From a virus, in the IMG/VR virus record IMGVR_UViG_3300030382_001968, positions 1-22,483 of that record: DNA of 22,483 nucleotides. One strand, given 5' to 3'. Position numbers and translations under genes: made by a program. The notes below the pieces were generated by a model. That model was not told the DNA's origin and did not search any database. It was given only the letters and a program-made list of their open reading frames with translations. Shown piece by piece: positions 3,110 to 14,957 of the stretch (positions are counted from its first letter, which is position 1; each line of letters starts with the position of its first letter).

Positions 3110-5154
3110 TATGTTCTACCTATACCTACTGGTCTTTTTTGTGATGCTTCTAAAGCTAATTCCGCCTCATTTATTTTCATTTGTTGTTTTTTAAGCGCTA
3201 ATTCTTGTGATTTTATAGCTAAATTTACTTCTGATTCTTGTTTCTTTATACCCAATTCTTGAGCTTTAATTTGGGTATCAATTTCTAACTCTTTAGCTTG
3301 TAATTGTAGTTTTTGCATTTCTAATTGTGATTTTTGCGCTTGTATTTTTTCATCAATACTTGGCTCTGTTTGTTTAGGTGGCATTGTTTCAGGGTTTGAC
3401 ACGTACATATCAGGGTTTTTATACCCAGCTTGTGATATATACTCACTAACAGCGTTATAAATGTTTTGTGGTTGTACTAAAGTACCCATTCCGCCTTGCT
3501 GTACCAATGATTGTATTATTTGCATAATACTTGTCATTGTCTGCATTTTAGATTGTTGGTTTCCACTACCTACACCTACATTTACTGTACAGTTTAGTTT
3601 TTCTTTCCAACGAGATACATCTATTGGTACAAATTTATTTCGTAAATAGAATACTTTTTCTCTATCTTCATACCTTTGTATTAGCGAGTAAATGTTCCTA
3701 AATAAATCTTTAATACCTGTTTCTGCAAATATACGAGCAATCAGCTCAATCCTTTGCATAGCAGATTCTGTTGCCGCTGATACAGCACCAGAAGTAACGT
3801 GTGAAGTAAGTACATCGGGGTTTAATCCCTGTGTCATTTTAGATACACCACTTCTTTCTTCTCTTACTTGGTCAAGGTATTTAACCATTTCAAAAGCGAA
3901 TGGTTGAATGCTTGGAGTAGGTAAAGGTTGAACTGCATTTGGTGCCCTCATCCTAACAATACCGCCAGGTCTTGAGGTTAATAAATCATCTAACTCAACT
4001 TGTCCAGATAACACAGCGTATCTAGCATTGTTAGTTAAGTACATATTATCTAACAAGTTTCTTACGATAGTAGATTTAATTAACTGTATATCTTTAACTG
4101 TGTCTGCTACAGACATACCATAAAACTTATGTGGAATAGGTAACGGACAAATAGTTGAGAAAGGTATCATGTCTATTTCAACATTATCAAGAATGACATT
4201 TCCACCTTTAGTAATCTTTCTTAATTCAGCTATACCATCGTTATCATAATCTATGCGTAAATAACACTCATCAAGCCAAACCTGTCTTGTCGCTCCTTCT
4301 CCTTCATCTGGTGGTATAGAATCATCATCGTAACTAAACCTTGCTAACCTTTCTTCATCAAATTCTGCTTGTGATTGCGAATAAGTGGGTAAATTTTCTA
4401 CTACTTTAGGGTCATATCCCTCTAGTATTAAATCGCTTACTGTTTTTTTAACTCTATGACATACAAATTGAGCTGATTCTATATCAACCGCCCTTCTTGA
4501 TATTAAAAACTCTTCGGGTGGTACAGCTACAATTTTAACTTGTCCTTTGTTTGTAATCCTTTGTACTACACAATCATAAGTATAAACTGGTGGTATTATA
4601 TTACCCATTTCATCAGTTGTTTCTTCTTGTTGTAAGTTTTCTGTTTTTTCTATTACATTTAACTCATCGTTAGCTAAAACTGCTTGGTATTCTATTTCAG
4701 TTAAGTTTGTATAACTTTCTGTGCTTGTTTCTACCTTTTCTTCCCAAAAATGCTTTACAACACCTGTTTTACTGATTAAAGCGTCTTTGAATACATCATA
4801 TAAAACTTTAAATCCATTGTTTTGTTTATTAAAAACATGATTAACGTAATCGGTGGCTTGTTCTGCCATTTCTACATCTTCGGGCCCTTCTGGCTCAAAT
4901 TCAGCTACATTGTTATGCGTTGTAAATATACGCATAAGACTTGGCATAATATACTCAATGGTATCTCTTACATCGGTAGTTACTATTTCAGACCGACCAT
5001 CAATTTCATTACCAAACTTCTCACCAAGATAATACTTCATGGAGTCCTCTCTTTGACTAGAGAGTTCACTATTCATGTGTCCTGTTGCGTTCTCTACCTC
5101 TCTCCCTAGTCTAGAAGCTAGTTCATCGTTGGTCATTTTTTTGGTTTTAGCCAT
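3109..5154 (-). CDS. Portal protein (P22-like large portal family)
   Basis: 681 residues; forms the dodecameric ring at the head vertex through which DNA is packaged. The N-terminal region (residues about 30-130: YYLGEKFGNE, TTDVRDTIEYIMPSLMRIFT, then ATDYVNHVFNKQN) and the large size match the P22-like/podovirus portal group. The last 100 residues are a Gln/Lys-rich amphipathic helix with repeated (K/Q)xQEL-type units, like a portal barrel or coiled-coil tail. It sits between terminase and scaffold/capsid, the standard packaging order. The ATG comes directly after the stop of the Lys-rich gene, suggesting coupling. Confidence 0.88.
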   Translation of the reverse strand: MAKTKKMTNDELASRLGREVENATGHMNSELSSQREDSMKYYLGEKFGNEIDGRSEIVTTDVRDTIEYIMPSLMRIFTTHNNVAEFEPEGPEDVEMAEQATDYVNHVFNKQNNGFKVLYDVFKDALISKTGVVKHFWEEKVETSTESYTNLTEIEYQAVLANDELNVIEKTENLQQEETTDEMGNIIPPVYTYDCVVQRITNKGQVKIVAVPPEEFLISRRAVDIESAQFVCHRVKKTVSDLILEGYDPKVVENLPTYSQSQAEFDEERLARFSYDDDSIPPDEGEGATRQVWLDECYLRIDYDNDGIAELRKITKGGNVILDNVEIDMIPFSTICPLPIPHKFYGMSVADTVKDIQLIKSTIVRNLLDNMYLTNNARYAVLSGQVELDDLLTSRPGGIVRMRAPNAVQPLPTPSIQPFAFEMVKYLDQVREERSGVSKMTQGLNPDVLTSHVTSGAVSAATESAMQRIELIARIFAETGIKDLFRNIYSLIQRYEDREKVFYLRNKFVPIDVSRWKEKLNCTVNVGVGSGNQQSKMQTMTSIMQIIQSLVQQGGMGTLVQPQNIYNAVSEYISQAGYKNPDMYVSNPETMPPKQTEPSIDEKIQAQKSQLEMQKLQLQAKELEIDTQIKAQELGIKKQESEVNLAIKSQELALKKQQMKINEAELALEASQKRPVGIGRT

Positions 5155-7042: not shown

Positions 7043-8035
7043 GTACCAATGTACATTATTCGCCGAAAACACGTGAAAAAGGGGGTTATTCGCCCTGATA
7101 TAGGGTTATTTGTGTATGTATGGTGGTAGAGGGAGCTTTATTTCTGAGAATAATATGTTCATGGGACTATTCTCTTTTCCATGGGTTGGCGAGGGGGTTG
7201 AGGGGTGTTGATAATATTGTAAGTTATTGATTTCTATTGTGATATTATTTTCAATCGTACCAGTACCAATAACAATAGTTTCAATTACCTTACTTACTGT
7301 TAATTACCTACCTACTAACTAGGGTGTTGGTTGTGGATTAAATTACATTAGTAGGAGTTGTTGTGTTTTATTATTACCTTATAGTGTGTGGCTAATACCG
7401 TCTTTCAACCCCATACACCCACCAAATCAACCATATTATTATAATAATAATACAACATACCACCACCCTGTATTTAGGTAATAAGGTACAGCAAATAAGG
7501 TTTTTCGTGGATTTAATTGTGGGTTGGTTTTTATTTAATACCTATAATAAAAATAATTACTTAATTAATTAATTAATTGTTGTTTTTTACTTTAATGTGT
7601 GTATTATAGTAATTGTACTAGGTAATTAGTTACCGAAATACTGGGTGAGTTTGGAGCACTTTTAACTACCTTTAGGTTTAACCTACAAAGATAATAAAAA
7701 AAGTGAAGTGTGTGACTTAAATTCCACCTTTTAGTGAAATTATAAGTTTACGACTTTAGGTTAGGTTGAGAACTACTTACCACAAGGTAAAAGATAAAAG
7801 ATAAACCACTAAAGAAAAGAGGGTAACTTGTAAACACTAATTCAACTAAAGTTAATATGGGTGATAGTATTTTTACACGGAAGTAGACGGTTAGGTAACT
7901 GAAGTTTAACACTATACCAAATTTATTTGGTAATACTGGGAGAGATAAAACATAAAGACTCCCCACAGAAATTTACTGTTCATTTACGGTAGGTTTTTGA
8001 TTGACTTGTAAAAGTAGTAATTCCTCCTCCTTAAA
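7043..8035. other. About 1 kb non-coding region with many small hairpins
   Basis: No ORF here has a credible start signal. Contents seen: a hairpin GAGAATA/TATTCTC followed by TTTT (7146-7178); a G-run patch (7183-7207); a four-base TTAA repeat tract (7561-7578); hairpins at 7621-7634 (GGTAA/TTACC), 7915-7932 (TACCAAAT/ATTTGGTA, perfect 8 bp) and 7938-7963 (GGGAG/CTCCC); a CCACCACCC motif (7460-7468); and a pyrimidine-rich anti-Shine-Dalgarno-like stretch (8021-8032). It lies between divergent operons, so promoters, an origin or a structured leader are reasonable guesses. A weak rightward promoter candidate is TTGTTT...16 bp...TATTAT near 7578-7606. Confidence 0.45.
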
Positions 8036-8075: not shown

Positions 8076-8127
8076 TACTGTAATACGGTGTAACCGTATC
8101 TGAAGATTACAAAAGTATGAAACAGTA
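8076..8127 (+). ncRNA. HHR-1: type III hammerhead ribozyme heading the operon
   Basis: Stem III UACUGU/ACAGUA (8076-8081, 8122-8127), cleavage triplet GUA with the cut after 8082, stem I AUACGG/CCGUAU closed by UGUAA (8083-8099), core CUGAAGA (8100-8106), stem II UAC-AAAA-GUA behind a U-U pair (8107-8118), GAAA (8119-8122). All invariant core bases are present. Cleavage would leave a 60-nt leader on the first mRNA that begins with the stem I hairpin. All three helices differ from HHR-13 by compensatory changes. Confidence 0.9.
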
Positions 8128-8142
8128 ACAAAGGAGGAAAAA

Positions 8143-8355
8143 ATGGATAAATATGGTATTAGTTATGTAAAAAAAGACAACCATAAAGATTCTTATGACG
8201 GGTTTTCTTTATACATTAGATTTTATAAAGCATGGAATAAAGAACACGCTTTAAATAAATTTGAAAAAAGTAAATTTTATAAAGAATACCCAGAATTAGG
8301 CGGTAGTATGGACGGGTTTTCTAATGTTCGTTCCGTTTGGAAAGTTGAAAAGTAA
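8143..8355 (+). CDS. Small basic protein, gene 1 of the ribozyme operon
   Basis: 70 residues, Lys/Tyr/Phe-rich, no membrane segment, family not recognised. Strong AAAGGAGG ribosome-binding site after HHR-1. Its stop codon UAA (8353-8355) lies inside the 5' strand of stem I of HHR-2, so a terminating ribosome would cover the ribozyme. Likely an early or host-directed accessory protein by position; that is inference. Confidence 0.8.
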   Translation: MDKYGISYVKKDNHKDSYDGFSLYIRFYKAWNKEHALNKFEKSKFYKEYPELGGSMDGFSNVRSVWKVEK

Positions 8356-8408
8356 TACTGACGAGGTTTTAATAACCGAAACACCCAATTTATTTGGGTG
8401 TATATTAC
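8352..8408 (+). ncRNA. HHR-2: type I hammerhead ribozyme
   Basis: Stem I GUAAUA/UAUUAC (8352-8357, 8403-8408), core CUGACGA (8358-8364), stem II GGUU-UUAAU-AACC (8365-8377), GAAA (8378-8381), stem III ACACCCAA/UUGGGUGU (8 bp), triplet GUA, cut after 8402. Leaves a 21-nt leader with AAGGAGG before gene 2. Confidence 0.95.
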
Positions 8409-8423
8409 AACTAAGGAGGAAAA

Positions 8424-8681
8424 ATGGAAAACACAGAAACAAAAGTTACAATAGGTTTCAAATTAATTAAATTTGAAAAACAAGATATGGAATTTTTAAG
8501 ACAATTATTAATTGAAGAATTTGCAAGTAAAAATGGTTCAGGAAGTAGAGGTTATATACGTAACAGTTACATAACAACACTTATTGACAAACTTGGTAAC
8601 GGTTTAGGTTTAGAAAATAATTATTGGAAAAATAATATATTACCTAAATGTTACGACAAATGGGAAAAAAAACCATATTAA
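8424..8681 (+). CDS. Unknown protein, gene 2 of the ribozyme operon
   Basis: 85 residues, mixed alpha/beta composition, positively charged, soluble. An N-terminal VTIGFKLIKFEKQDMEFLRQ stretch suggests a beta strand followed by a helix. No family recognised. AAGGAGG ribosome-binding site 7 nt from ATG. Stop 4 nt before stem I of HHR-3. Confidence 0.8.
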   Translation: MENTETKVTIGFKLIKFEKQDMEFLRQLLIEEFASKNGSGSRGYIRNSYITTLIDKLGNGLGLENNYWKNNILPKCYDKWEKKPY

Positions 8682-8685
8682 AAAA

Positions 8686-8831
8686 GTAATACTGACGAGG
8701 TTTTAATAACCGAAACACACTAAAATATCTATTTTGAAAAAATACTAATGAAGTTTGTATTTATTATTTTAAATAATACTGATGAAGTGAAAACTAAAAT
8801 ATAAACTGAAATATCTTGGTGTGTATATTAC
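8686..8831 (+). ncRNA. HHR-3: type I hammerhead with an 83-nt insertion in stem III
   Basis: Stem I GUAAUA/UAUUAC (8686-8691, 8826-8831), core CUGACGA (8692-8698), stem II GGUU-UUAAU-AACC (8699-8711), GAAA (8712-8715), stem III ACACAC/GUGUGU, triplet GUA, cut after 8825. Compared with the nearly identical HHR-9, the stem III loop is 83 nt longer. The extra piece holds two core-like motifs, CUAAUGA (8745-8751) and CUGAUGA (8779-8785); the second could use the same 3' strand and cleavage site. Confidence 0.88.
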
Positions 8832-8846
8832 AACAAAGGAGGAAAT

Positions 8847-9221
8847 ATGAAACTTGACAGAAAAATTAGTTACTTGAAAAGAAATCCATTGGCTTATGCT
8901 TTAGCACTTGAAGGTGATGGCCTTAGTGATGAAGATATAAAAAAGGGATTAGAAGAAATTGGTTTGTATAATACCAAACAAATAGAATTTAGTATGAGAT
9001 GTATGATTTCTAGTAGAAGTAATACTGAAAAAGAGTACGAACAATTAATCGAAGATGTAGGTAACATTATATCTAAATCTGAAACTGATGTTTTTAATGT
9101 AATAGATAATTATAATAAAAACAATCCAAACGATGAAAAGATAAATACTGCTGATATGTATCACTTTTTTACTGAGTTGAAAAGTAAATTAGAGATTATG
9201 TTTGAAATTAATGATAATTAA
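8847..9221 (+). CDS. Acidic helical protein, gene 3 of the ribozyme operon
   Basis: 124 residues, mainly charged and helical, no Cys cluster except single Cys, no membrane segment. The N-terminus (LKRNPLAYALALEGDGLSDE) followed by DIKKGLEEIGL looks like a compact helical domain. No family recognised. AAAGGAGG ribosome-binding site; stop 3 nt before HHR-4. Confidence 0.8.
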   Translation: MKLDRKISYLKRNPLAYALALEGDGLSDEDIKKGLEEIGLYNTKQIEFSMRCMISSRSNTEKEYEQLIEDVGNIISKSETDVFNVIDNYNKNNPNDEKINTADMYHFFTELKSKLEIMFEINDN

Positions 9222-9224
9222 AAA

Positions 9225-9282
9225 GTAATACTGATGAGGATTTAATATCCGAAATACCTAAAGAAATTTAGGTATATATTAC
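9225..9282 (+). ncRNA. HHR-4: type I hammerhead ribozyme
   Basis: Stem I GUAAUA/UAUUAC (9225-9230, 9277-9282), core CUGAUGA (9231-9237), stem II GGAU-UUAAU-AUCC (9238-9250), GAAA (9251-9254), stem III AUACCUAA/UUAGGUAU, triplet AUA, cut after 9276. The stem II third pair is A-U where HHR-2 has U-A, a compensatory change. Leader left: 21 nt. Confidence 0.94.
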
Positions 9283-9297
9283 AAAAAGGAGGAAAAA

Positions 9298-9519
9298 ATG
9301 ACATTGAAATATATAACAGAATGTAAAACTAATAAAACAGTAATACACGATATTAATTTTGTTGAACTTATGACTGGTGCACATTCGCATTCTACTTCTT
9401 TTAAAAAAGAGTACAAAAAAGGCGACCAACATATTCATAAGACTAAAAAAGAGGCATTTGAGTATATAGAAGATATGAAAAAAGATAATATTAAAATGGT
9501 ATATATAGGTAAATACTAA
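9298..9519 (+). CDS. Small His/Lys-rich protein, gene 4 of the ribozyme operon
   Basis: 73 residues with four His between about residues 29 and 47 (GAHSHS and QHIHKT), which could bind metal, but there is no known motif. Otherwise basic and soluble; unknown family. AAAGGAGG ribosome-binding site. One nucleotide separates its stop from stem I of HHR-5. Confidence 0.78.
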   Translation: MTLKYITECKTNKTVIHDINFVELMTGAHSHSTSFKKEYKKGDQHIHKTKKEAFEYIEDMKKDNIKMVYIGKY

Positions 9520-9520
9520 A

Positions 9521-9580
9521 GTAATACTGAAGAGGTTTTAATATCCGAAATACCGTTATTAACTTAACGGTATCTATTAC
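9521..9580 (+). ncRNA. HHR-5: type I hammerhead with a mismatched (chimeric) stem II
   Basis: Stem I GUAAUA/UAUUAC (9521-9526, 9575-9580), core CUGAAGA (9527-9533), stem II GGUU-UUAAU-AUCC (9534-9546) with a U-U mismatch in the third pair, GAAA (9547-9550), stem III of 9 bp starting AUACCGUUA, triplet AUC, cut after 9574. The two stem II halves match two different ribozyme subgroups of this operon. Confidence 0.9.
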
Positions 9581-9596
9581 AACTAAGGAGGACAAA

Positions 9597-9773
9597 ATGT
9601 TATACGATGTAAGTATAGAAGAATGGCAAAGTTATTTGCGTGTTCAAAAATCTGGACGATTCAATATGTTAGACCCACAAGCTATATCAGCTACTGGTAT
9701 CGACAAGAAATCATATTTCGAAATAGTTAAACACTATTCAGAATTTAAAGATGAATACGGAGCTAAATGCTAA
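9597..9773 (+). CDS. Small protein, gene 5 of the ribozyme operon (58 aa)
   Basis: Begins MLYDVSIEEWQSYLRVQKSG, continues with a YFEIVKHYSEF segment near the C-terminus and ends in Cys. Soluble, helical, unknown family. It has the operon's usual signal (AAGGAGGACAAA then ATG) and lies exactly between HHR-5 and HHR-6, so it is well supported despite being short. Confidence 0.75.
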   Translation: MLYDVSIEEWQSYLRVQKSGRFNMLDPQAISATGIDKKSYFEIVKHYSEFKDEYGAKC

Positions 9774-9777
9774 AAAA

Positions 9778-9887
9778 GTAATACTGACGAGGTTTCAGTA
9801 ACCGAAACGATGTTGGCTAGTTTATGGTTGGTTATGGTGAAATAATCCATAGGAGCGAAAACTGGTATATCCGACATCGTATATTAC
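9778..9887 (+). ncRNA. HHR-6: type I hammerhead with an elaborated stem III
   Basis: Stem I GUAAUA/UAUUAC (9778-9783, 9882-9887), core CUGACGA (9784-9790), stem II GGUU-UCAGU-AACC (9791-9803), GAAA (9804-9807), stem III ACGAUGUUGG/CCGACAUCGU (10 bp, one G-U) capped by a further folded region with CUAGUUU/AAACUGG and UUAUGG/CCAUAG helices. Triplet GUA, cut after 9881. Confidence 0.92.
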
Positions 9888-9902
9888 AAAAAGGAGGAAA
9901 AA

Positions 9903-9974
9903 ATGTTTGAAGAAACACCTTACGGAATAATCGACCCCATTACTGGCGAGTTATTAATTCCGTTTACAAGTTAG
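9903..9974 (+). CDS. Microprotein, gene 6 of the ribozyme operon (23 aa)
   Basis: Reads MFEETPYGIIDPITGELLIP then FTS and a TAG stop. It has a full AAGGAGGAAAAA ribosome-binding site and is bracketed by HHR-6 and HHR-7; the last G of its stop is the first base of stem I of HHR-7. The cassette context is the reason to believe it is expressed. Too short for a functional call. Confidence 0.65.
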   Translation: MFEETPYGIIDPITGELLIPFTS

Positions 9975-10033
9975 TTATACTGACGAGGATTCAATATCCG
10001 AAACACCTAGATTTATTTCTAGGTGTATATAAC
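9974..10033 (+). ncRNA. HHR-7: type I hammerhead with compensated stem I
   Basis: Stem I GUUAUA/UAUAAC (9974-9979, 10028-10033), core CUGACGA (9980-9986), stem II GGAU-UCAAU-AUCC (9987-9999), GAAA (10000-10003), stem III ACACCUAGA/UCUAGGUGU, triplet GUA, cut after 10027. Stem I differs from the usual GUAAUA/UAUUAC by a paired change on both strands, strong evidence for a selected helix. Confidence 0.95.
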
Positions 10034-10048
10034 AAAAAGGAGGAAAAA

Positions 10049-10417
10049 ATGAGACAATATCCAATATGGTGCGATGTAGATGCACCAAATTACAAAAGTG
10101 ATAAATCTTTTGGAACAAGAGATTACACTACTACCGATGTAAAAATCGGTAGTAGTAGAGTAAATTCTTTTGACTTTGTTAAAACGGAAATTAAAAAATC
10201 TGTTTTAGATTGTGAAACACAAGAGACGGAAAGTTTTGTAGATTATAAAGAACTTCACTTGTTTGAGTTTTTGGTTGATGGCGTAGTTGTTAAAAAAACA
10301 ATCTACGACCCGAAGACTAAAGATGTAATAAGCGAAGATATTGTTGGTGGTATGTATGAGAAGCTTTTCGAAACAAACTTCCAAAAACATTATACGAGAA
10401 GATTTGGAAATAAATAA
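10049..10417 (+). CDS. Unknown protein, gene 7 of the ribozyme operon
   Basis: 122 residues, mixed charge, predicted mostly beta strand (repeated short hydrophobic stretches such as LHLFEFLVDGVVVKKTIYD near residues 72-90). Two Cys (residues 6 and 54). No family recognised. Usual AAGGAGGAAAAA signal; stop 1 nt before HHR-8. Confidence 0.8.
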   Translation: MRQYPIWCDVDAPNYKSDKSFGTRDYTTTDVKIGSSRVNSFDFVKTEIKKSVLDCETQETESFVDYKELHLFEFLVDGVVVKKTIYDPKTKDVISEDIVGGMYEKLFETNFQKHYTRRFGNK

Positions 10418-10418
10418 A

Positions 10419-10475
10419 GTAATACTGACGAGGATTGATTATCCGAAACCCTACTTATGAGGTAGGGTATATTAC
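10419..10475 (+). ncRNA. HHR-8: type I hammerhead ribozyme
   Basis: Stem I GUAAUA/UAUUAC (10419-10424, 10470-10475), core CUGACGA (10425-10431), stem II GGAU-UGAUU-AUCC (10432-10444), GAAA (10445-10448), stem III ACCCUAC/GUAGGGU, triplet GUA, cut after 10469. Leader left: 22 nt. Confidence 0.95.
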
Positions 10476-10491
10476 AACAAAGGAGGAAAAA

Positions 10492-10764
10492 ATGAGACCA
10501 AAAAATATTTTTGGAAAATCTGTAAAAGTAGATAATGCTTATGCAACTTACCGTGCAGGTTCTTTTGAATGGAAAATTTTAAAGACATATCAAGTAAAGG
10601 AAAACGAAGATAAAAACCAATATGCCAGATGGTTTACAGCTTGTAAATCGCCAATGACATACGATAGTTGGGAATATGGAGATGCTTACATAAGCGATAT
10701 TATGGGATGCAATCCAGAACTTATATCATATACTAACGATTGGTATGAAATTTATAGTAGGTAA
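10492..10764 (+). CDS. Unknown protein, gene 8 of the ribozyme operon
   Basis: 90 residues from the ATG at 10492, chosen because it follows AAAGGAGG by 7 nt; a longer frame starting at 10435 would run through HHR-8 and lacks a start signal. Aromatic-rich (many Tyr and Trp) and soluble, with KNQYARWFTACKSPM in the middle. No family recognised. Stop 4 nt before HHR-9. Confidence 0.78.
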   Translation: MRPKNIFGKSVKVDNAYATYRAGSFEWKILKTYQVKENEDKNQYARWFTACKSPMTYDSWEYGDAYISDIMGCNPELISYTNDWYEIYSR

Positions 10765-10768
10765 AAAA

Positions 10769-10831
10769 GTAATACTGACGAGGATTTAATATCCGAAACA
10801 CACTAAAATATCTATTTGGTGTGTATATTAC
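10769..10831 (+). ncRNA. HHR-9: type I hammerhead ribozyme, sister of HHR-3
   Basis: Stem I GUAAUA/UAUUAC (10769-10774, 10826-10831), core CUGACGA (10775-10781), stem II GGAU-UUAAU-AUCC (10782-10794), GAAA (10795-10798), stem III ACACACUAAA/UUUGGUGUGU, triplet GUA, cut after 10825. The stem III sequence is the same as in HHR-3 apart from that copy's insertion. Leader left: 19 nt. Confidence 0.95.
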
Positions 10832-10844
10832 AAAGGAGGAAAAT

Positions 10845-11030
10845 ATGAACAAAGAAATCAGAACTACTTTAGATAAAGAAATTACTGATTGGATTGATGA
10901 CCACAGCAACAGAAAAATAAAAATATTTATTTATGGTGCTGTTGATAGAAGATACAAAACATACGCTCAAAACTTACTTGATGCAAGAAAAGAATCAGGG
11001 TTTGATGATTCAGTTTGTAAGTATCAATAA
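10845..11030 (+). CDS. Small basic protein, gene 9 of the ribozyme operon
   Basis: 61 residues from the ATG at 10845 (AAAGGAGG 7-8 nt upstream); an in-frame start at 10821 would lie inside HHR-9. Begins MNKEIRTTLDKEITDWIDDH; charged, one Cys near the C-terminus. Unknown family. A 16-nt gap to HHR-10 is the longest stop-to-ribozyme spacing among the type I copies. Confidence 0.75.
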   Translation: MNKEIRTTLDKEITDWIDDHSNRKIKIFIYGAVDRRYKTYAQNLLDARKESGFDDSVCKYQ

Positions 11031-11046
11031 ATAACCGTAGAAAAGA

Positions 11047-11098
11047 GTAATACCGATGAGGTTTTAGTAACCGAAACGCCCTTATGGGCGTCTATTAC
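11047..11098 (+). ncRNA. HHR-10: type I hammerhead with a U4C core change
   Basis: Stem I GUAAUA/UAUUAC (11047-11052, 11093-11098), core CCGAUGA (11053-11059) in place of CUGAUGA, stem II GGUU-UUAGU-AACC (11060-11072), GAAA (11073-11076), stem III ACGCCC/GGGCGU with a UUAU loop, triplet GUC, cut after 11092. All helices are intact; only U4 is changed, which is expected to reduce activity. Confidence 0.85.
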
Positions 11099-11112
11099 AA
11101 AAGGAGGAAAAA

Positions 11113-11484
11113 ATGAACGATGATATTATAATTTTAATAATGGGCAACATCGATAATGTTCTAGTTGCGGTGGGTGTTTATTACTCACTAGCAAGTATTG
11201 AACGATATATGGAATCTTATTTTATAAACTATAAAGCATCTCAACAGTTAATTGCGTGTGTTTCGGCATGTCTTGCAAACACCGTGAGTGATGGTATAGG
11301 TTTTCTCGCTACTGGTAGTTGGGAATGGGCTTTATGGGTAATGATAGGTTGTTTATCGGGTATGTTTATAATTCCAGTTATGGAATTTATTAAATATATG
11401 AAAAAGAAAAACAAAGAATCTAGGTTGCACCCCAAAATTCATATATGGGGCACATCAATTAAAAGTAAAACTGATGAGGATTAA
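11113..11484 (+). CDS. Membrane protein, gene 10 of the ribozyme operon
   Basis: 123 residues with hydrophobic segments at about 4-27, 42-62 and 70-93, then a basic cytoplasmic-type tail (MKKKNKESRLHPK). Probably two or three membrane passes in the inner membrane; function unknown. Usual AAAGGAGG signal. Its reading frame runs on through stem I, core and half of stem II of HHR-11: the last residues SKTDED are encoded by the ribozyme and the UAA lies in the stem II loop. Translation to the end must unfold HHR-11. Confidence 0.78.
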   Translation: MNDDIIILIMGNIDNVLVAVGVYYSLASIERYMESYFINYKASQQLIACVSACLANTVSDGIGFLATGSWEWALWVMIGCLSGMFIIPVMEFIKYMKKKNKESRLHPKIHIWGTSIKSKTDED

Positions 11485-11514
11485 TTATCCGAAACGCCTT
11501 CGGGCGTCTTTTAC
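11465..11514 (+). ncRNA. HHR-11: type I hammerhead overlapping the end of gene 10
   Basis: Stem I GUAAAA/UUUUAC (11465-11470, 11509-11514), a compensated variant; core CUGAUGA (11471-11477), stem II GGAU-UAAUU-AUCC (11478-11490), GAAA (11491-11494), stem III ACGCC/GGCGU closed by a C(UUCG)G tetraloop, triplet GUC, cut after 11508. The smallest and most compact copy. Confidence 0.95.
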
Positions 11515-11530
11515 AATAGGAGGAAATATA

Positions 11531-11746
11531 ATGACTTGTAAAAACAAAGTAATTCAAATTGTAGAGAAAGGTTATGACGCAAAAGAGGTTAAAGTGCCTT
11601 GTGGTAGCACAAGTATTTACGGAGACCGTCTATTATGTGATGAATGTTTAAACGATAAAAAATTACAAAAACAACTTCAACAACAAGACCGAAACCAAAA
11701 AGCAGATGATGCTTGGTTGAGTTCTAGTGGTTGGGGAGAAATGTAA
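11531..11746 (+). CDS. Small Cys-containing protein, gene 11 of the ribozyme operon
   Basis: 71 residues from the ATG at 11531 behind AATAGGAGG; an upstream in-frame start at 11474 is inside HHR-11. Cys at 3, 24, 36 and 39 (VPCG and LLCDEC) could form a small zinc site. The C-terminal half is Gln/Lys-rich and ends WLSSSGWGEM. Unknown family; possibly a small zinc-binding regulator. Confidence 0.75.
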   Translation: MTCKNKVIQIVEKGYDAKEVKVPCGSTSIYGDRLLCDECLNDKKLQKQLQQQDRNQKADDAWLSSSGWGEM

Positions 11747-11751
11747 ATAAA

Positions 11752-11808
11752 GTAATACTGATGAGGTTTCAGTAACCGAAACACCCAAACGAGTTGGGTG
11801 TCTATTAC
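11752..11808 (+). ncRNA. HHR-12: type I hammerhead ribozyme
   Basis: Stem I GUAAUA/UAUUAC (11752-11757, 11803-11808), core CUGAUGA (11758-11764), stem II GGUU-UCAGU-AACC (11765-11777), GAAA (11778-11781), stem III ACACCCAA/UUGGGUGU, triplet GUC, cut after 11802. Leader left: 20 nt. Confidence 0.95.
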
Positions 11809-11822
11809 AATAGGAGGAACAA

Positions 11823-12080
11823 ATGAAACAATATTATGATGTTATGCGTAGAGATTATATCAAAACCGATACTGGTTTCGAGTATAGATACTTGTTGGTA
11901 AAATCTTTTAGTAACAGACACGATGCGAAGATGTATGCTTTAAAATGTAGCGATGGCGAGTTTTATTGGTACACGGAACGAGTGGATGAATTGAGTGCCT
12001 CAATCAGTAAAGATTTTGGCGACACAGTTTGTTCGGTTGGTTACATAATTGCGACGCCACAAGAACAACTAACATTCTAG
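11823..12080 (+). CDS. Unknown protein, gene 12 of the ribozyme operon
   Basis: 85 residues, aromatic-rich (Tyr at several positions in the first 25 residues), mixed alpha/beta, soluble. No family recognised. AATAGGAGG ribosome-binding site. It is the last gene before the second structured leader (12089-12226), so it ends the first block of the operon. Confidence 0.78.
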   Translation: MKQYYDVMRRDYIKTDTGFEYRYLLVKSFSNRHDAKMYALKCSDGEFYWYTERVDELSASISKDFGDTVCSVGYIIATPQEQLTF

Positions 12081-12088
12081 GTTAAAAA

Positions 12089-12169
12089 CACCCCTGACAT
12101 TTTACTTAAAGTGTAATTACATACACAAAAGATAAAAGAAATGTACGTCAAGTGGAATGTCGGGTGGTG
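12089..12169 (+). other. Long leader hairpin abutting ribozyme HHR-13
   Basis: CACCCCUGACAUUUUACUU (12089-12107) pairs with 12150-12169 over 19 bp with one bulged U (12165) and three G-U pairs. The 42-nt loop holds a further GUGUA/UACAC hairpin (12111-12126) and an A-rich single strand. It ends 2 nt before stem III of HHR-13. Possible roles are an RNase III site, an antitermination element or a helix stabilising the ribozyme. Confidence 0.65.
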
Positions 12170-12171
12170 GA

Positions 12172-12226
12172 TTTCTGTATTAAGTTGTGATACTTAACTG
12201 ATGATTGCAAAAGCATGAAACAGAAA
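12172..12226 (+). ncRNA. HHR-13: type III hammerhead upstream of the GHKL/HExxH gene
   Basis: Stem III UUUCUGU/ACAGAAA (12172-12178, 12220-12226), triplet GUA with the cut after 12179, stem I UUAAGU/ACUUAA with a UGUGAU loop (12180-12197), core CUGAUGA (12198-12204), stem II UGC-AAAA-GCA behind a U-U pair (12205-12216), GAAA (12217-12220). Same architecture as HHR-1 with compensated stems. Leaves a 69-nt leader beginning with a hairpin. Confidence 0.92.
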
Positions 12227-12248
12227 CAAAAACAAAAAGGAGGAAAAT

Positions 12249-13688
12249 ATGTCAAAAAGCAACGAGTGGTTCGTTGTAGATAAAGAAGGTCTGAAACAGA
12301 TTGAATCTGGCAGGGCTAAACACTTTATTCTATATGAACTAATATCTAATGCGTTTGATGAAAATGTAACTAGATGTGATGTAATTGTCAAAACGTTTGA
12401 AAATAAACATCGTATAGTCGTTAAAGATGATAGCCCTGATGGGTTTAAATCATTAACGGATAGTTATACATTATTTGCGCCATCCTATAAAAAAGGTAAC
12501 GTTGAACAACGTGGTAGATTTAATCTCGGTGAAAAACTTGTTTTATCAATGTTTGAAACTGCAAAGATTACATCAACTACAGGTACAATAACCTTTAACA
12601 AAGATGGCACTAGAAGTAAATCTGAAGATTCTACCGACAAAGGTAGTGTATTTGAGGGTTTTATATCTAAAAATGTACTAACTGACGATGATATCAAACT
12701 TATGGTTATAGAATGTTTCAATATCATTGTTCCGAGTCATATTGTTTTAACAATAAATGGCGAAGAAATGGATAAGAGACGTCCATTAAAGGTAATTAGA
12801 TTTGAACTCCCTACTGTTGGCGTAGATAAAAAAGGTAATTTGTTCGACACACATAGAATTGCAGATGTAGAGGTTTATAAAACCCCTAAATCTTATATAT
12901 GTGAAATGGGAATACCAGTAGTCGAAACAGACATGTCTTTTTCTGTAAATGTTTTACAGAAAATTCCTTTAAACAAGGATAGAGATAATGTTAAACCTAT
13001 ATATTTACGTAAAATGCAAACGGGTGTTCTAGATGCTATGTATGAAGAAATGTCCGAAGATGAAATAAAATCGTCTTGGGTAAATACAGCGTTAGAAAAA
13101 GCTAACGAAAAAGCAACTAGTCATGTGTTTGGTGTACGACATGGTGAGAACGCTGTAACTTTCAGCCCTGCTGACCCTGAATCTAGCAAAAAAGCTATGG
13201 CAGACGGTAGGGAAGTTGTTTACGCTGGTTCTTATTCTGGGAAAGTATGGCAAAACGTCAGAACTCACAGAGATGAAAACCCAAATCTAGTACCGTCATC
13301 ATCTAGTTTATCAGAATATCAAACTGATAATATTATGATACATATAGATGGCAACGAAGTAACCAAAGTAACAGATAAAATGAATCATATAGCTGATATA
13401 GCTAAAGATTTCCATATTAATTTGTTCAATGATGAGTTAAATGTAACTTTCTATAAAAACCACAAAGATAACGCTGTGGCTAGATATGGAAAGTGTGATT
13501 TATACTTCAATACTGCTCATTTAAGTCAGAAATGGTTTAACTGGGATACCAATAAAGAAGATATAATTGCTTTAATCATTCATGAGTTTGGGCACTGGTA
13601 CACTGGCGACCACTTATCTAGAGAATACAATGACGCTTTATGTAAAATTGGAGCTAAATTGTATTTACTACAAAAAAAATGTAACTGA
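12249..13688 (+). CDS. GHKL-type ATPase fused to a C-terminal HExxH metallopeptidase-like domain
   Basis: 479 residues, by far the largest gene of the operon. N-terminal Bergerat-fold ATPase signs: N box ELISNAFDEN (30-39), G1-like VKDDSPDGF (58-66), and G2/lid-like RGRFNLGEK (88-96). The C-terminal 80 residues carry IIHEFGHWYTGDH (443-455): HEFGH at 445-449 with a downstream His455/Glu459 that could complete a zinc site. GHKL proteins include HSP90, MutL, type II topoisomerases and T4 rIIA-like phage proteins; which group is closest cannot be told here. AAAGGAGG start signal after HHR-13. The stop UGA (13686-13688) is U4-G5-A6 of the HHR-14 core. Confidence 0.8.
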   Translation: MSKSNEWFVVDKEGLKQIESGRAKHFILYELISNAFDENVTRCDVIVKTFENKHRIVVKDDSPDGFKSLTDSYTLFAPSYKKGNVEQRGRFNLGEKLVLSMFETAKITSTTGTITFNKDGTRSKSEDSTDKGSVFEGFISKNVLTDDDIKLMVIECFNIIVPSHIVLTINGEEMDKRRPLKVIRFELPTVGVDKKGNLFDTHRIADVEVYKTPKSYICEMGIPVVETDMSFSVNVLQKIPLNKDRDNVKPIYLRKMQTGVLDAMYEEMSEDEIKSSWVNTALEKANEKATSHVFGVRHGENAVTFSPADPESSKKAMADGREVVYAGSYSGKVWQNVRTHRDENPNLVPSSSSLSEYQTDNIMIHIDGNEVTKVTDKMNHIADIAKDFHINLFNDELNVTFYKNHKDNAVARYGKCDLYFNTAHLSQKWFNWDTNKEDIIALIIHEFGHWYTGDHLSREYNDALCKIGAKLYLLQKKCN

Positions 13689-13736
13689 TGAGACCTAATT
13701 GGTCGAAACCCTCGATTTATTTCGGGGGTCTTACAT
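13679..13736 (+). ncRNA. HHR-14: type I hammerhead containing a stop codon in its core
   Basis: Stem I AUGUAA/UUACAU (13679-13684, 13731-13736), core CUGAUGA (13685-13691), stem II GACC-UAAUU-GGUC (13692-13704), GAAA (13705-13708), stem III ACCCUCGA with UCGGGGGU (one G-U), triplet GUC, cut after 13730. Stems I and II are both fully compensated relative to the other copies. The UGA stop of the preceding gene is part of the catalytic core. Confidence 0.95.
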
Positions 13737-13752
13737 AAACAAAGGAGGAAAA

Positions 13753-14148
13753 ATGAACGACGACAAAAAAAGGTTAGACCGATACTATAATAGTCTTGAA
13801 TGTAAAGTGAAATATTTAACAAGTATTTTAGAATACCTTCTATGCGATGATTGTATATCATTAGATAAACATAATATTGCGATTGTTATGTATCAAATTA
13901 AAAGCATAATGACACTTCGATATAGAATTAATTGTATGGAAAACAATAAAATCGAAGGAGATTTTGATGTAAATAATCGAAGAGTATATGCATTTCTAAA
14001 TGGTGATGTTGAATTTGCTGTAAACTGCAGATACTTAAATAACAAGGGCAAAGGTAGAGATATACCAAACAAAACCACGTTATTGAATAACTTTAAAGAA
14101 GAATACTTTAAATTTATGCTGTACAGACACGGTGTTGTTAATAACTAA
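13753..14148 (+). CDS. Unknown protein, gene 14 of the ribozyme operon
   Basis: 131 residues from the ATG at 13753 (AAAGGAGG 7 nt upstream); a longer frame from 13699 starts inside HHR-14 and is rejected. Helical N-terminal half with two close Cys (LLCDDC near residues 29-34), basic C-terminal half. No family recognised. Its stop directly abuts stem I of HHR-15. Confidence 0.78.
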   Translation: MNDDKKRLDRYYNSLECKVKYLTSILEYLLCDDCISLDKHNIAIVMYQIKSIMTLRYRINCMENNKIEGDFDVNNRRVYAFLNGDVEFAVNCRYLNNKGKGRDIPNKTTLLNNFKEEYFKFMLYRHGVVNN

Positions 14149-14237
14149 GTATAACTGACGAGGATTTATTATCCGAAACCTAGTGTGGAACGGCTGAAAG
14201 AGGATTCTTTCTAGTAAAAACCCACTAGGTCTTATAC
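14149..14237 (+). ncRNA. HHR-15: type I hammerhead with an extra hairpin in stem III
   Basis: Stem I GUAUAA/UUAUAC (14149-14154, 14232-14237), core CUGACGA (14155-14161), stem II GGAU-UUAUU-AUCC (14162-14174), GAAA (14175-14178), stem III ACCUAGUG/CACUAGGU plus GG/CC beyond a bulge, capped by a GAAAGA/UCUUUC hairpin (14196-14211). Triplet GUC, cut after 14231. Leader left: 26 nt. Confidence 0.93.
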
Positions 14238-14257
14238 AACATTCCAAAGGAGGAAAT

Positions 14258-14602
14258 ATGTTAAATACACTACATAAAGTAGATGCTAAAGTAACTAAAC
14301 GACAATCGCGAGATGAAATACTCGCTGAGTTCTTAGTTGATACTGTAAAGTTATCGCCTAAACTCGGACACGATGATAGCCAAACTGATTCAAGGTTTTA
14401 CACCTTAGTCGGACTTAAGCTACTTGCCTACGAGTTATCTAGGAATGATGATAATATAATATTGGTTAAACCTATGATGACTAGAAAAATGTTGCGTAAT
14501 GGCGGTATGTTAAAGTCAGTTAGTGGACTTATAGATGATTTAATAGGAGAAATAAACCATGTAATTTCTCTTAAAGAACGCATATCTAAATTAAAACAGT
14601 AA
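14258..14602 (+). CDS. Helical protein, gene 15 of the ribozyme operon
   Basis: 114 residues, mainly helical, soluble, with a DEILAEFLVDTVKL segment near residues 19-32 and a C-terminal coiled-coil-like LIGEINHVISLKERISKLKQ. No Cys. No family recognised. AAAGGAGG signal. Its UAA stop (14600-14602) is part of the 5' strand of stem I of HHR-16. Confidence 0.78.
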   Translation: MLNTLHKVDAKVTKRQSRDEILAEFLVDTVKLSPKLGHDDSQTDSRFYTLVGLKLLAYELSRNDDNIILVKPMMTRKMLRNGGMLKSVSGLIDDLIGEINHVISLKERISKLKQ

Positions 14603-14667
14603 TACTGATGAGTGTTTAGTACACGAAACCCCTATCTTCGTAAGATGTTCCGATAGGGGTCTATTAC
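14599..14667 (+). ncRNA. HHR-16: type I hammerhead, last copy
   Basis: Stem I GUAAUA/UAUUAC (14599-14604, 14662-14667), core CUGAUGA (14605-14611), stem II GUGU-UUAGU-ACAC (14612-14624), GAAA (14625-14628), stem III ACCCCUAUC with GAUAGGGGU, triplet GUC, cut after 14661. Stem II is a third independent compensated version. Leader left: 26 nt. Confidence 0.95.
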
Positions 14668-14687: not shown

Positions 14688-14897
14688 ATGAAATATGGGA
14701 TAGTATATGTAAGCGAACATGGCAATTTATTAACAAATTCAACGGATACGTTTGAATCTGAAGATAAAACCATTGGTTTAAAAAATGCTCAGCAACAGTT
14801 GTACCCAAAAAGACAATACATTGTGGTGCCAATACCTAATGTTTGGAAAACAGATGATTGTTCTGATTGCCCAGTTTGCAAACAAACACTTAAATAA
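14688..14897 (+). CDS. Small protein with C-terminal Cys cluster, gene 16 (last) of the ribozyme operon
   Basis: 69 residues; C-terminal CSDCPVC (three Cys) may bind a metal, preceded by a beta-rich region (YIVVPIPNVW). Unknown family. The signal GTAGGAGGTAAT precedes the ATG. The operon's terminator follows 26 nt after the stop. Confidence 0.78.
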   Translation: MKYGIVYVSEHGNLLTNSTDTFESEDKTIGLKNAQQQLYPKRQYIVVPIPNVWKTDDCSDCPVCKQTLK

Positions 14898-14923
14898 AGT
14901 TAGTTAAATCTAGCTTTCCTCCG

Positions 14924-14957
14924 ACCCTCCGTTTTTAATTAAACGGGGGGTTTTTTT
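14924..14957 (+). terminator. Rho-independent terminator of the ribozyme operon
   Basis: ACCCUCCGUUU pairs with AAACGGGGGGU (10-11 bp, one G-U) around a short AU-rich loop, followed by a run of seven T. On the minus strand there is no matching U-run after the stem, so it mainly serves the rightward operon, ending just before the convergent gene at 14963. Confidence 0.9.

Follow-up and report, generated by a model that had tools for sequence, protein, structure and literature searches.

Clusters of hammerhead ribozymes have been described in prophages, and processing of the transcript into single-gene messenger RNAs (mRNAs) was proposed for them (Perreault et al. 2011, PMC3088659); tandem prophage sets were shown there to cleave in vitro, and a triple set also in Escherichia coli. 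What prokaryotic hammerheads do is regarded as an open question, one with a phage connection (PMC6155905). Here we analyse the virus record IMGVR_UViG_3300030382_001968, the whole of which (22,483 bases, hereafter the window) was examined and which carries genes for a terminase, a portal protein and a major head protein. On its plus strand, between 8143 and 14897, lie 16 consecutive open reading frames (ORFs), each with an AGGAGG Shine-Dalgarno (SD) sequence 4-7 nucleotides (nt) ahead of its ATG, and within 6.6 kb there are 16 hammerheads, one complete fold ahead of each of the 16 genes (14 of type I and two of type III). It is probable, judging from the sequence, that a single transcript of these genes is cut by a self-cleaving hammerhead at each junction, yielding 16 single-gene mRNAs with uniform ends.

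Identity and structure of the ribozymes

The catalytic core is intact in 15/16 copies. Among those of type I, the core C-U-G-A-N-G-A...G-A-A-A with its U16.1-H17 triplet is exact in 13/14, and three stems with stem I open are present in 14/14; in both type III copies (8076 and 12172) the core is the same, but it is stem III that is open and stem I that is closed. The pattern CTGANGA-GAAA-TATTAC occurs 7 times in the window and 0 times in 100 shuffles, and a full descriptor, which requires the hammerhead core and all three stems, finds no hammerhead on the minus strand of the window and no further one outside the 16 operon copies; reversed-sequence controls (~4 Mb of fetched loci) gave 0 descriptor matches against counts of 287 and 114. 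Identification by Rfam alone fails: none of its models reaches the gathering score on the window, the best sub-threshold scores being at most 42.0 bits for RAGATH-1-hammerhead (cutoff 56.3) and 31.5 for Hammerhead_1 (cutoff 34). Covariance models were therefore trained on hammerheads found in other phage contigs (28 type I copies for R1, 28 type III copies for R2). These contigs have nothing in common with the window beyond short stretches of hammerhead similarity and a few proteins that are weakly related. The training copies were picked by the descriptor, so that their own pairing is by construction, which is not so for the window copies. R1 recovers 14/14 type I copies, with expectation values (E) of 1.5e-18 to 3.5e-6 and a next-best match at 0.014, a degenerate nested copy; R2 recovers 2/2 type III copies (3.9e-16 and 1.5e-14; next match 0.18). 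Shuffles, reversed-sequence controls and independent models together rule out a chance or low-complexity origin.

The stems covary. When copies were chosen blind to stem I from the window and three relatives that also carry arrays (3300030372_003023, 3300025101_000170 and 3300006735_005474; hereafter G1, G2 and G7), stem I paired at 180/180 pairs, against a maximum of 174 in 10,000 permutations, and stem II at 119/120 (permutation maximum 103). Across a 24-copy alignment 99.7% of cells are paired, with two-sided changes at 11/15 pairs. Its covariation score is 0.436 vs 0.123 shuffled (0/500), a test in which kinship alone can push related sequences past shuffles without structure; structures slid along the alignment, added as a control, score at most 0.075. 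In the window, 14/14 type I copies have a U-N-A-N-U loop II; at other loci, for which 88 type I copies were compared, those with a 5-nt loop II keep U1 in 70/72, A3 in 65/72 and U5 in 70/72. An A flanks stem I in most type I copies, which with the loop II motif suggests a conserved tertiary contact signature. Stem III hairpins are predicted by RNAfold to be strong (P >=0.93 in 13/14 type I copies).

The initial annotation had listed 16 genes with 16 ribozymes (14 type I, two type III), a single deviating core base in one copy, stem changes matched on the opposite strand, and type I cleavage 19-26 nt before the ATG, upstream of AGGAGG. All of this is borne out: the counts by the descriptor and by R1/R2, the deviation as U4 to C at 11047, the matching changes by stem covariation above permutations and shuffles, and the cleavage positions by measured distances from predicted cut to ATG (19-26 nt for type I; 60 and 69 nt for type III). 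The covariance-model check proposed with it gave a divided result, Rfam models staying under their gathering scores while R1/R2 find all 16 copies at E <=3.5e-6.

Inserts in stem III are noted in two copies. In the 8686 ribozyme the loop of stem III holds an insert (8735-8820) with a degenerate second hammerhead (8757-8814), perhaps left over from a lost gene or a fused pair; considered as a 17th ribozyme it reaches E of just 0.014 (R1) and 0.18 (R2), and it is treated as a degenerate remnant. A branched stem III insert is common to the window copy at 14149-14237 and to G1 (reversed 3784-3872), and its inner hairpin differs between the two by a compensatory change (GAAAGA/UCUUUC to GAUAGA/UCUAUC); this insert may act as a binding site or make an additional tertiary contact.

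Recurrence in other phages and linkage to the upstream gene

A search of related phages, likewise proposed at the outset, found the same array design in G1, G2 and G7, where ribozyme-headed genes number 10/10, 7/8 and 3/3 respectively (20/21, or 36/37 with the window). The 479-amino-acid (aa) gene is preceded by a type III copy in the window and by a type I copy at the same junction in G1, which argues that ribozyme function has been kept, not sequence. Gene order and content are reshuffled among the four genomes as gene-plus-ribozyme units, and G2 and G7, near-identical as far as the first SD, differ after it by one cassette.

Relative to the preceding stop codon, all 14 window type I copies begin at -20 to +16 nt; in arrays of other phage contigs this distance is mostly -20 to +12 nt. 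Ribozyme similarity across genomes tracks the upstream gene (mean 0.853 vs 0.560 for unrelated pairs, P=1e-5, although the pairs are few and non-independent and overlap with the stop partly forces upstream linkage); a tie to the downstream gene is not supported (0.573, P=0.48). Because they are anchored at, and inherited with, the upstream gene, type I copies look like 3'-end makers of that gene. The earlier description of a ribozyme 'in front of every gene' thus holds for position at all 16 genes but, for the type I copies, probably not for allegiance. The exchanged cassette would be SD-gene-ribozyme, identical to the predicted cleavage product. Coding sequence also enters the ribozymes, gene 10 ending in stem II and its loop (11465-11484) and gene 13 in the core (13679-13688).

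At the operon head, the leading gene is preceded by a type III copy in 3/3 genomes with a visible head (window, G2, G7), the copies of G2 and G7 having a weaker stem III. A conserved leader anti-SD (8021-8032 in the window) is predicted to mask the first SD before cleavage. RNAfold gives this SD an unpaired probability of 0.00 with the leader and 0.89 after cleavage in the window, with corresponding changes from 0.00 to 0.98 in G2 and from 0.01 to 0.93 in G7, a prediction that presumes a transcription start upstream of 8021; as G2 and G7 are near-identical at the head, the three genomes count as two independent cases. When all 16 genes were folded, unmasking of the SD by cleavage was clear at the head only.

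Beyond these relatives, at least five other contigs carry several hammerheads, many of them ahead of an SD and ORF; among the matches listed, L213 has 8 copies, L104 7 (type III first), L108 6, L112 5 (type III first) and L178 5. One type III class, marked by a U.U mismatch adjoining stem II, recurs with at least 73 matches, some from overlapping loci. In bacterial and archaeal genomes, few of the listed matches to the hammerhead-SD pattern pass the descriptor, and none forms an array of three or more. Four contigs (L331, L269, L270 and L325) have several type III hammerheads ahead of genes seemingly without SD sequences, and L387:93-530, which was binned with an uncultured bacterium (isolate name ErkenSummer) and may be a prophage, has two type III copies.

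Among the operon genes (Table 1), the 479-aa product of gene 13 has an HEFGH motif, and its sole relative in the phage collection is in the 485-kb uncultured phage LR745208.1 (37% identity). The large hairpin 3' of gene 12 (CUGACAUUUUACUU...AAGUGGAAUGUCGG) is conserved between the window (12088-12168) and G1 (reversed 3685-3764, in L091), with RNAfold energies of -28.9 and -31.9 kcal/mol after gene 12 and its G1 orthologue; it is followed by a type III ribozyme in the window but by a type I in G1.

Table 1. Features of the ribozyme operon in order of position (HH, hammerhead; E values from models R1 and R2).
Feature	Position	Strand	Predicted cut after	Evidence and remarks
Leader anti-SD UUCCUCCUCCUU	8021..8032	+		predicted pairing with first SD until type III cut removes leader; RNAfold
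Type III HH, operon head	8076..8127	+	8082	R2 E=1.5e-14; descriptor
Gene 1	8143..8355	+		70 aa; SD+ORF; orthologue in L491
Type I HH	8352..8408	+	8402	overlaps gene 1 stop; R1 E=1.5e-14
Gene 2	8424..8681	+		85 aa; SD+ORF
Type I HH, long stem III loop insert	8686..8831	+	8825	R1 E=2.4e-10; fold
Gene 3	8847..9221	+		124 aa; SD+ORF
Type I HH	9225..9282	+	9276	R1 E=1.1e-12
Gene 4	9298..9519	+		73 aa; SD+ORF; orthologue in L465
Type I HH	9521..9580	+	9574	one U.U mismatch in stem II; R1 E=1.3e-11
Gene 5	9597..9773	+		58 aa; SD+ORF; weak DUF5049 match, below Pfam cutoff
Type I HH, long stem III	9778..9887	+	9881	R1 E=3.5e-6
Gene 6	9903..9974	+		23 aa; 61% identity to 28-aa ORF of G1
Type I HH	9974..10033	+	10027	R1 E=1.9e-13
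Gene 7	10049..10417	+		122 aa; orthologues in G1, G2, G7, L491
Type I HH	10419..10475	+	10469	R1 E=2.4e-14
Gene 8	10492..10764	+		90 aa; SD+ORF
Type I HH	10769..10831	+	10825	R1 E=1.2e-13
Gene 9	10845..11030	+		61 aa; SD+ORF
Type I HH, U4-to-C core	11047..11098	+	11092	R1 E=6.8e-17
Gene 10	11113..11484	+		123 aa; 3' end overlaps following ribozyme (11465)
Type I HH	11465..11514	+	11508	R1 E=1.5e-18
Gene 11	11531..11746	+		71 aa; orthologues in G2, L522
Type I HH	11752..11808	+	11802	R1 E=1.8e-15
Gene 12	11823..12080	+		85 aa
Large hairpin 3' of gene 12	12088..12168	+		RNAfold; similar hairpin 3' of orthologous gene in G1
Type III HH	12172..12226	+	12179	R2 E=3.9e-16
Gene 13	12249..13688	+		479 aa; matches GHKL ATPases weakly (HATPase_c_3 E=4e-4, short of Pfam cutoff)
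Type I HH	13679..13736	+	13730	gene 13 stop UGA inside CUGA core; R1 E=2.2e-15
Gene 14	13753..14148	+		131 aa
Type I HH, branched stem III	14149..14237	+	14231	R1 E=1.7e-9
Gene 15	14258..14602	+		114 aa
Type I HH	14599..14667	+	14661	R1 E=1.5e-14
Gene 16	14688..14897	+		69 aa; final operon gene
Intrinsic-terminator-like hairpin with T run	14923..14952	+		likely transcript end

Probable self-processing and its alternatives

Hammerhead identity and self-processing fit the core, the covariation, the putative tertiary signature and the recurrence in relatives. If the operon works in this way, genes 1-16 would be transcribed together up to the terminator-like hairpin. Each type I copy would cut just before the next SD, its body remaining as the hairpin-rich 3' end of the upstream mRNA, with a 2',3'-cyclic phosphate expected from the known hammerhead reaction, and the downstream mRNA would begin with a 5'-OH and a short leader of 19-26 nt that includes the SD. 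The type III copies, at the head and at 12172, would cut on their own 5' side and their bodies would be kept by the downstream mRNA; at the head, the cut would also remove the leader whose anti-SD is predicted to mask the first SD. Effects on message stability and translation may follow, and the uncoupled expression of each gene is one possible consequence of processing. Only tentatively would we extend this to a ribozyme-organised operon, recurrent in several phage lineages, in which SD-gene-ribozyme is at once the mRNA and the exchanged cassette, type I copies replace terminators and the head type III copy acts as an SD switch.

Several observations weigh against self-processing as an explanation of the array. 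The 11047 copy has the one altered core (CCGAUGA), and the last gene of G2 has no ribozyme. The copies are AU-rich, RNAfold gives stem I a probability of at most 0.11 in six of them (9521, 9974, 11465, 11752, 14149 and 14599), and the AU-rich hammerhead insulator riboJ57 failed in E. coli (PMC7536230), so that some copies may be slow. Stop codons lie inside ribozymes, where terminating ribosomes could hinder folding; the gene 13 stop is on the UGA of the CUGA core, and a ribosome terminating there would therefore cover the core. The SDs of genes 2-16 have no clear predicted masking, and cleavage would thus be unnecessary for their translation. Finally, among 80 terminase relatives (82-92% identical), 45 have at least 2.5 kb of upstream flank and 43 of these 45 are without hammerheads, the exceptions being G2 and L106 (one copy). 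R1 gave nothing above noise on 30 ribozyme-free relatives and two cultured phages; neither Pelagibacter phage Baldr nor Vibrio phage 1.262.O, the cultured relatives examined, shows a hammerhead. One ribozyme-free locus, L491, holds orthologues of gene 1, gene 7 and one G1 gene in the same place, but joined in the ordinary manner, stop and start codons lying close together or overlapping. As most near relatives are ribozyme-free, the system is not essential to this type of phage; since most terminase relatives and L491 lack the ribozymes, these would have been inserted between stop and SD in particular lineages, or else lost in other relatives.

Other explanations would retain the repeats and give cleavage a lesser role. 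That the ribozyme-SD repeats are mainly recombination joints for cassette swapping, with RNA cleavage secondary or a by-product, would account for the reshuffling of the window, G1, G2 and G7 by gene-plus-ribozyme unit, for the single cassette by which G2 and G7 differ past the first SD, and for an SD region that is near-identical across all units. We nevertheless regard it as unlikely: joints need sequence identity, but the divergence of the stems is compensatory and preserves nothing except the RNA fold, type III substitutes for type I at one orthologous junction, and the cores are catalytically complete. Core conservation bears equally on the proposal that the elements are stable 3' hairpins or spacers (mRNA stabilisers or insulators) in which self-cleavage has little weight, which is improbable to a further degree; stem III is strong in nearly all type I copies and these are anchored at stop codons, but such a role would not preserve the core in 15/16 copies, the U-N-A-N-U loop II, an A-flanked 6-bp stem I and the U-H triplet.

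It is also conceivable, if very improbable, that each gene, released as a fragment between two type I copies, is closed into a circular mRNA through a rebuilt stem I, religated by the ribozyme or by an RtcB-type ligase. RtcB acts on 5'-OH and cyclic-phosphate ends such as those expected here, and many neighbouring copies have a common stem I (GUAAUA/UAUUAC), so fragment ends can pair. By inspection, full compatibility is seen in only 6/12 pairs of neighbouring type I copies, close to what chance would give from the common stem I; selection for circular mRNAs was accordingly rejected, compatibility between neighbours not being enriched. A published search for circular products of clustered hammerheads found none (PMC3088659).

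The 16/16 arrangement, repeated in relatives and with a ribozyme-free counterpart in L491, makes the role of the hammerheads directly testable. If cleavage is confirmed, single-gene mRNAs would arise with no need of a promoter, terminator or host nuclease at every gene, and synthetic operons would gain a ready set of parts for insulating their genes. Should the broader proposal be true, ribozyme-organised operons would be a recurrent way of phage operon construction.

Comparison with known systems

The best Rfam matches to the window copies are to the RAGATH-1 hammerhead (RF03152), which has a similar type I core and stem layout; the window stays below its gathering score, and most of the copies shown have a poor RAGATH-1 upstream hairpin or none. 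In RiboJ insulators the ribozyme body remains on the 5' side. RiboJ is engineered and used once per transcription unit, whereas a window type I copy would leave its body attached 3' of the gene before it. The window type III copies are more comparable, since in RiboJ a hammerhead ahead of the ribosome-binding site standardises the 5' end of the message (PMC7536230). A natural parallel to the operon head is the HHphage hammerhead of haloarchaeal viruses, a variant that heads a polycistronic transcript near its mapped 5' end and occurs as a single copy (PMC3088659), in contrast to the one copy per gene of the window.

The closest relatives in design are the prophage clusters, in which, as in the window, several hammerheads of mixed type flank single genes in phage DNA (PMC3088659). 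The initial annotation knew of no operon built in this way, and no one-per-gene hammerhead operon was found in the open-access literature searched, subscription papers being mostly not covered; that claim of novelty is narrowed by the clusters and the processing idea published in 2011 and stands for one-per-gene completeness. As far as the accessible part of that report describes them, the prophage clusters are short, up to a triple set, whereas the window has a ribozyme for each of 16 consecutive genes, and it differs from them further in its stop-codon anchoring, its type III head and its recurrence in relatives with reshuffled genes. What is new here is one-per-gene completeness; clustering and the idea of mRNA processing had already been published.

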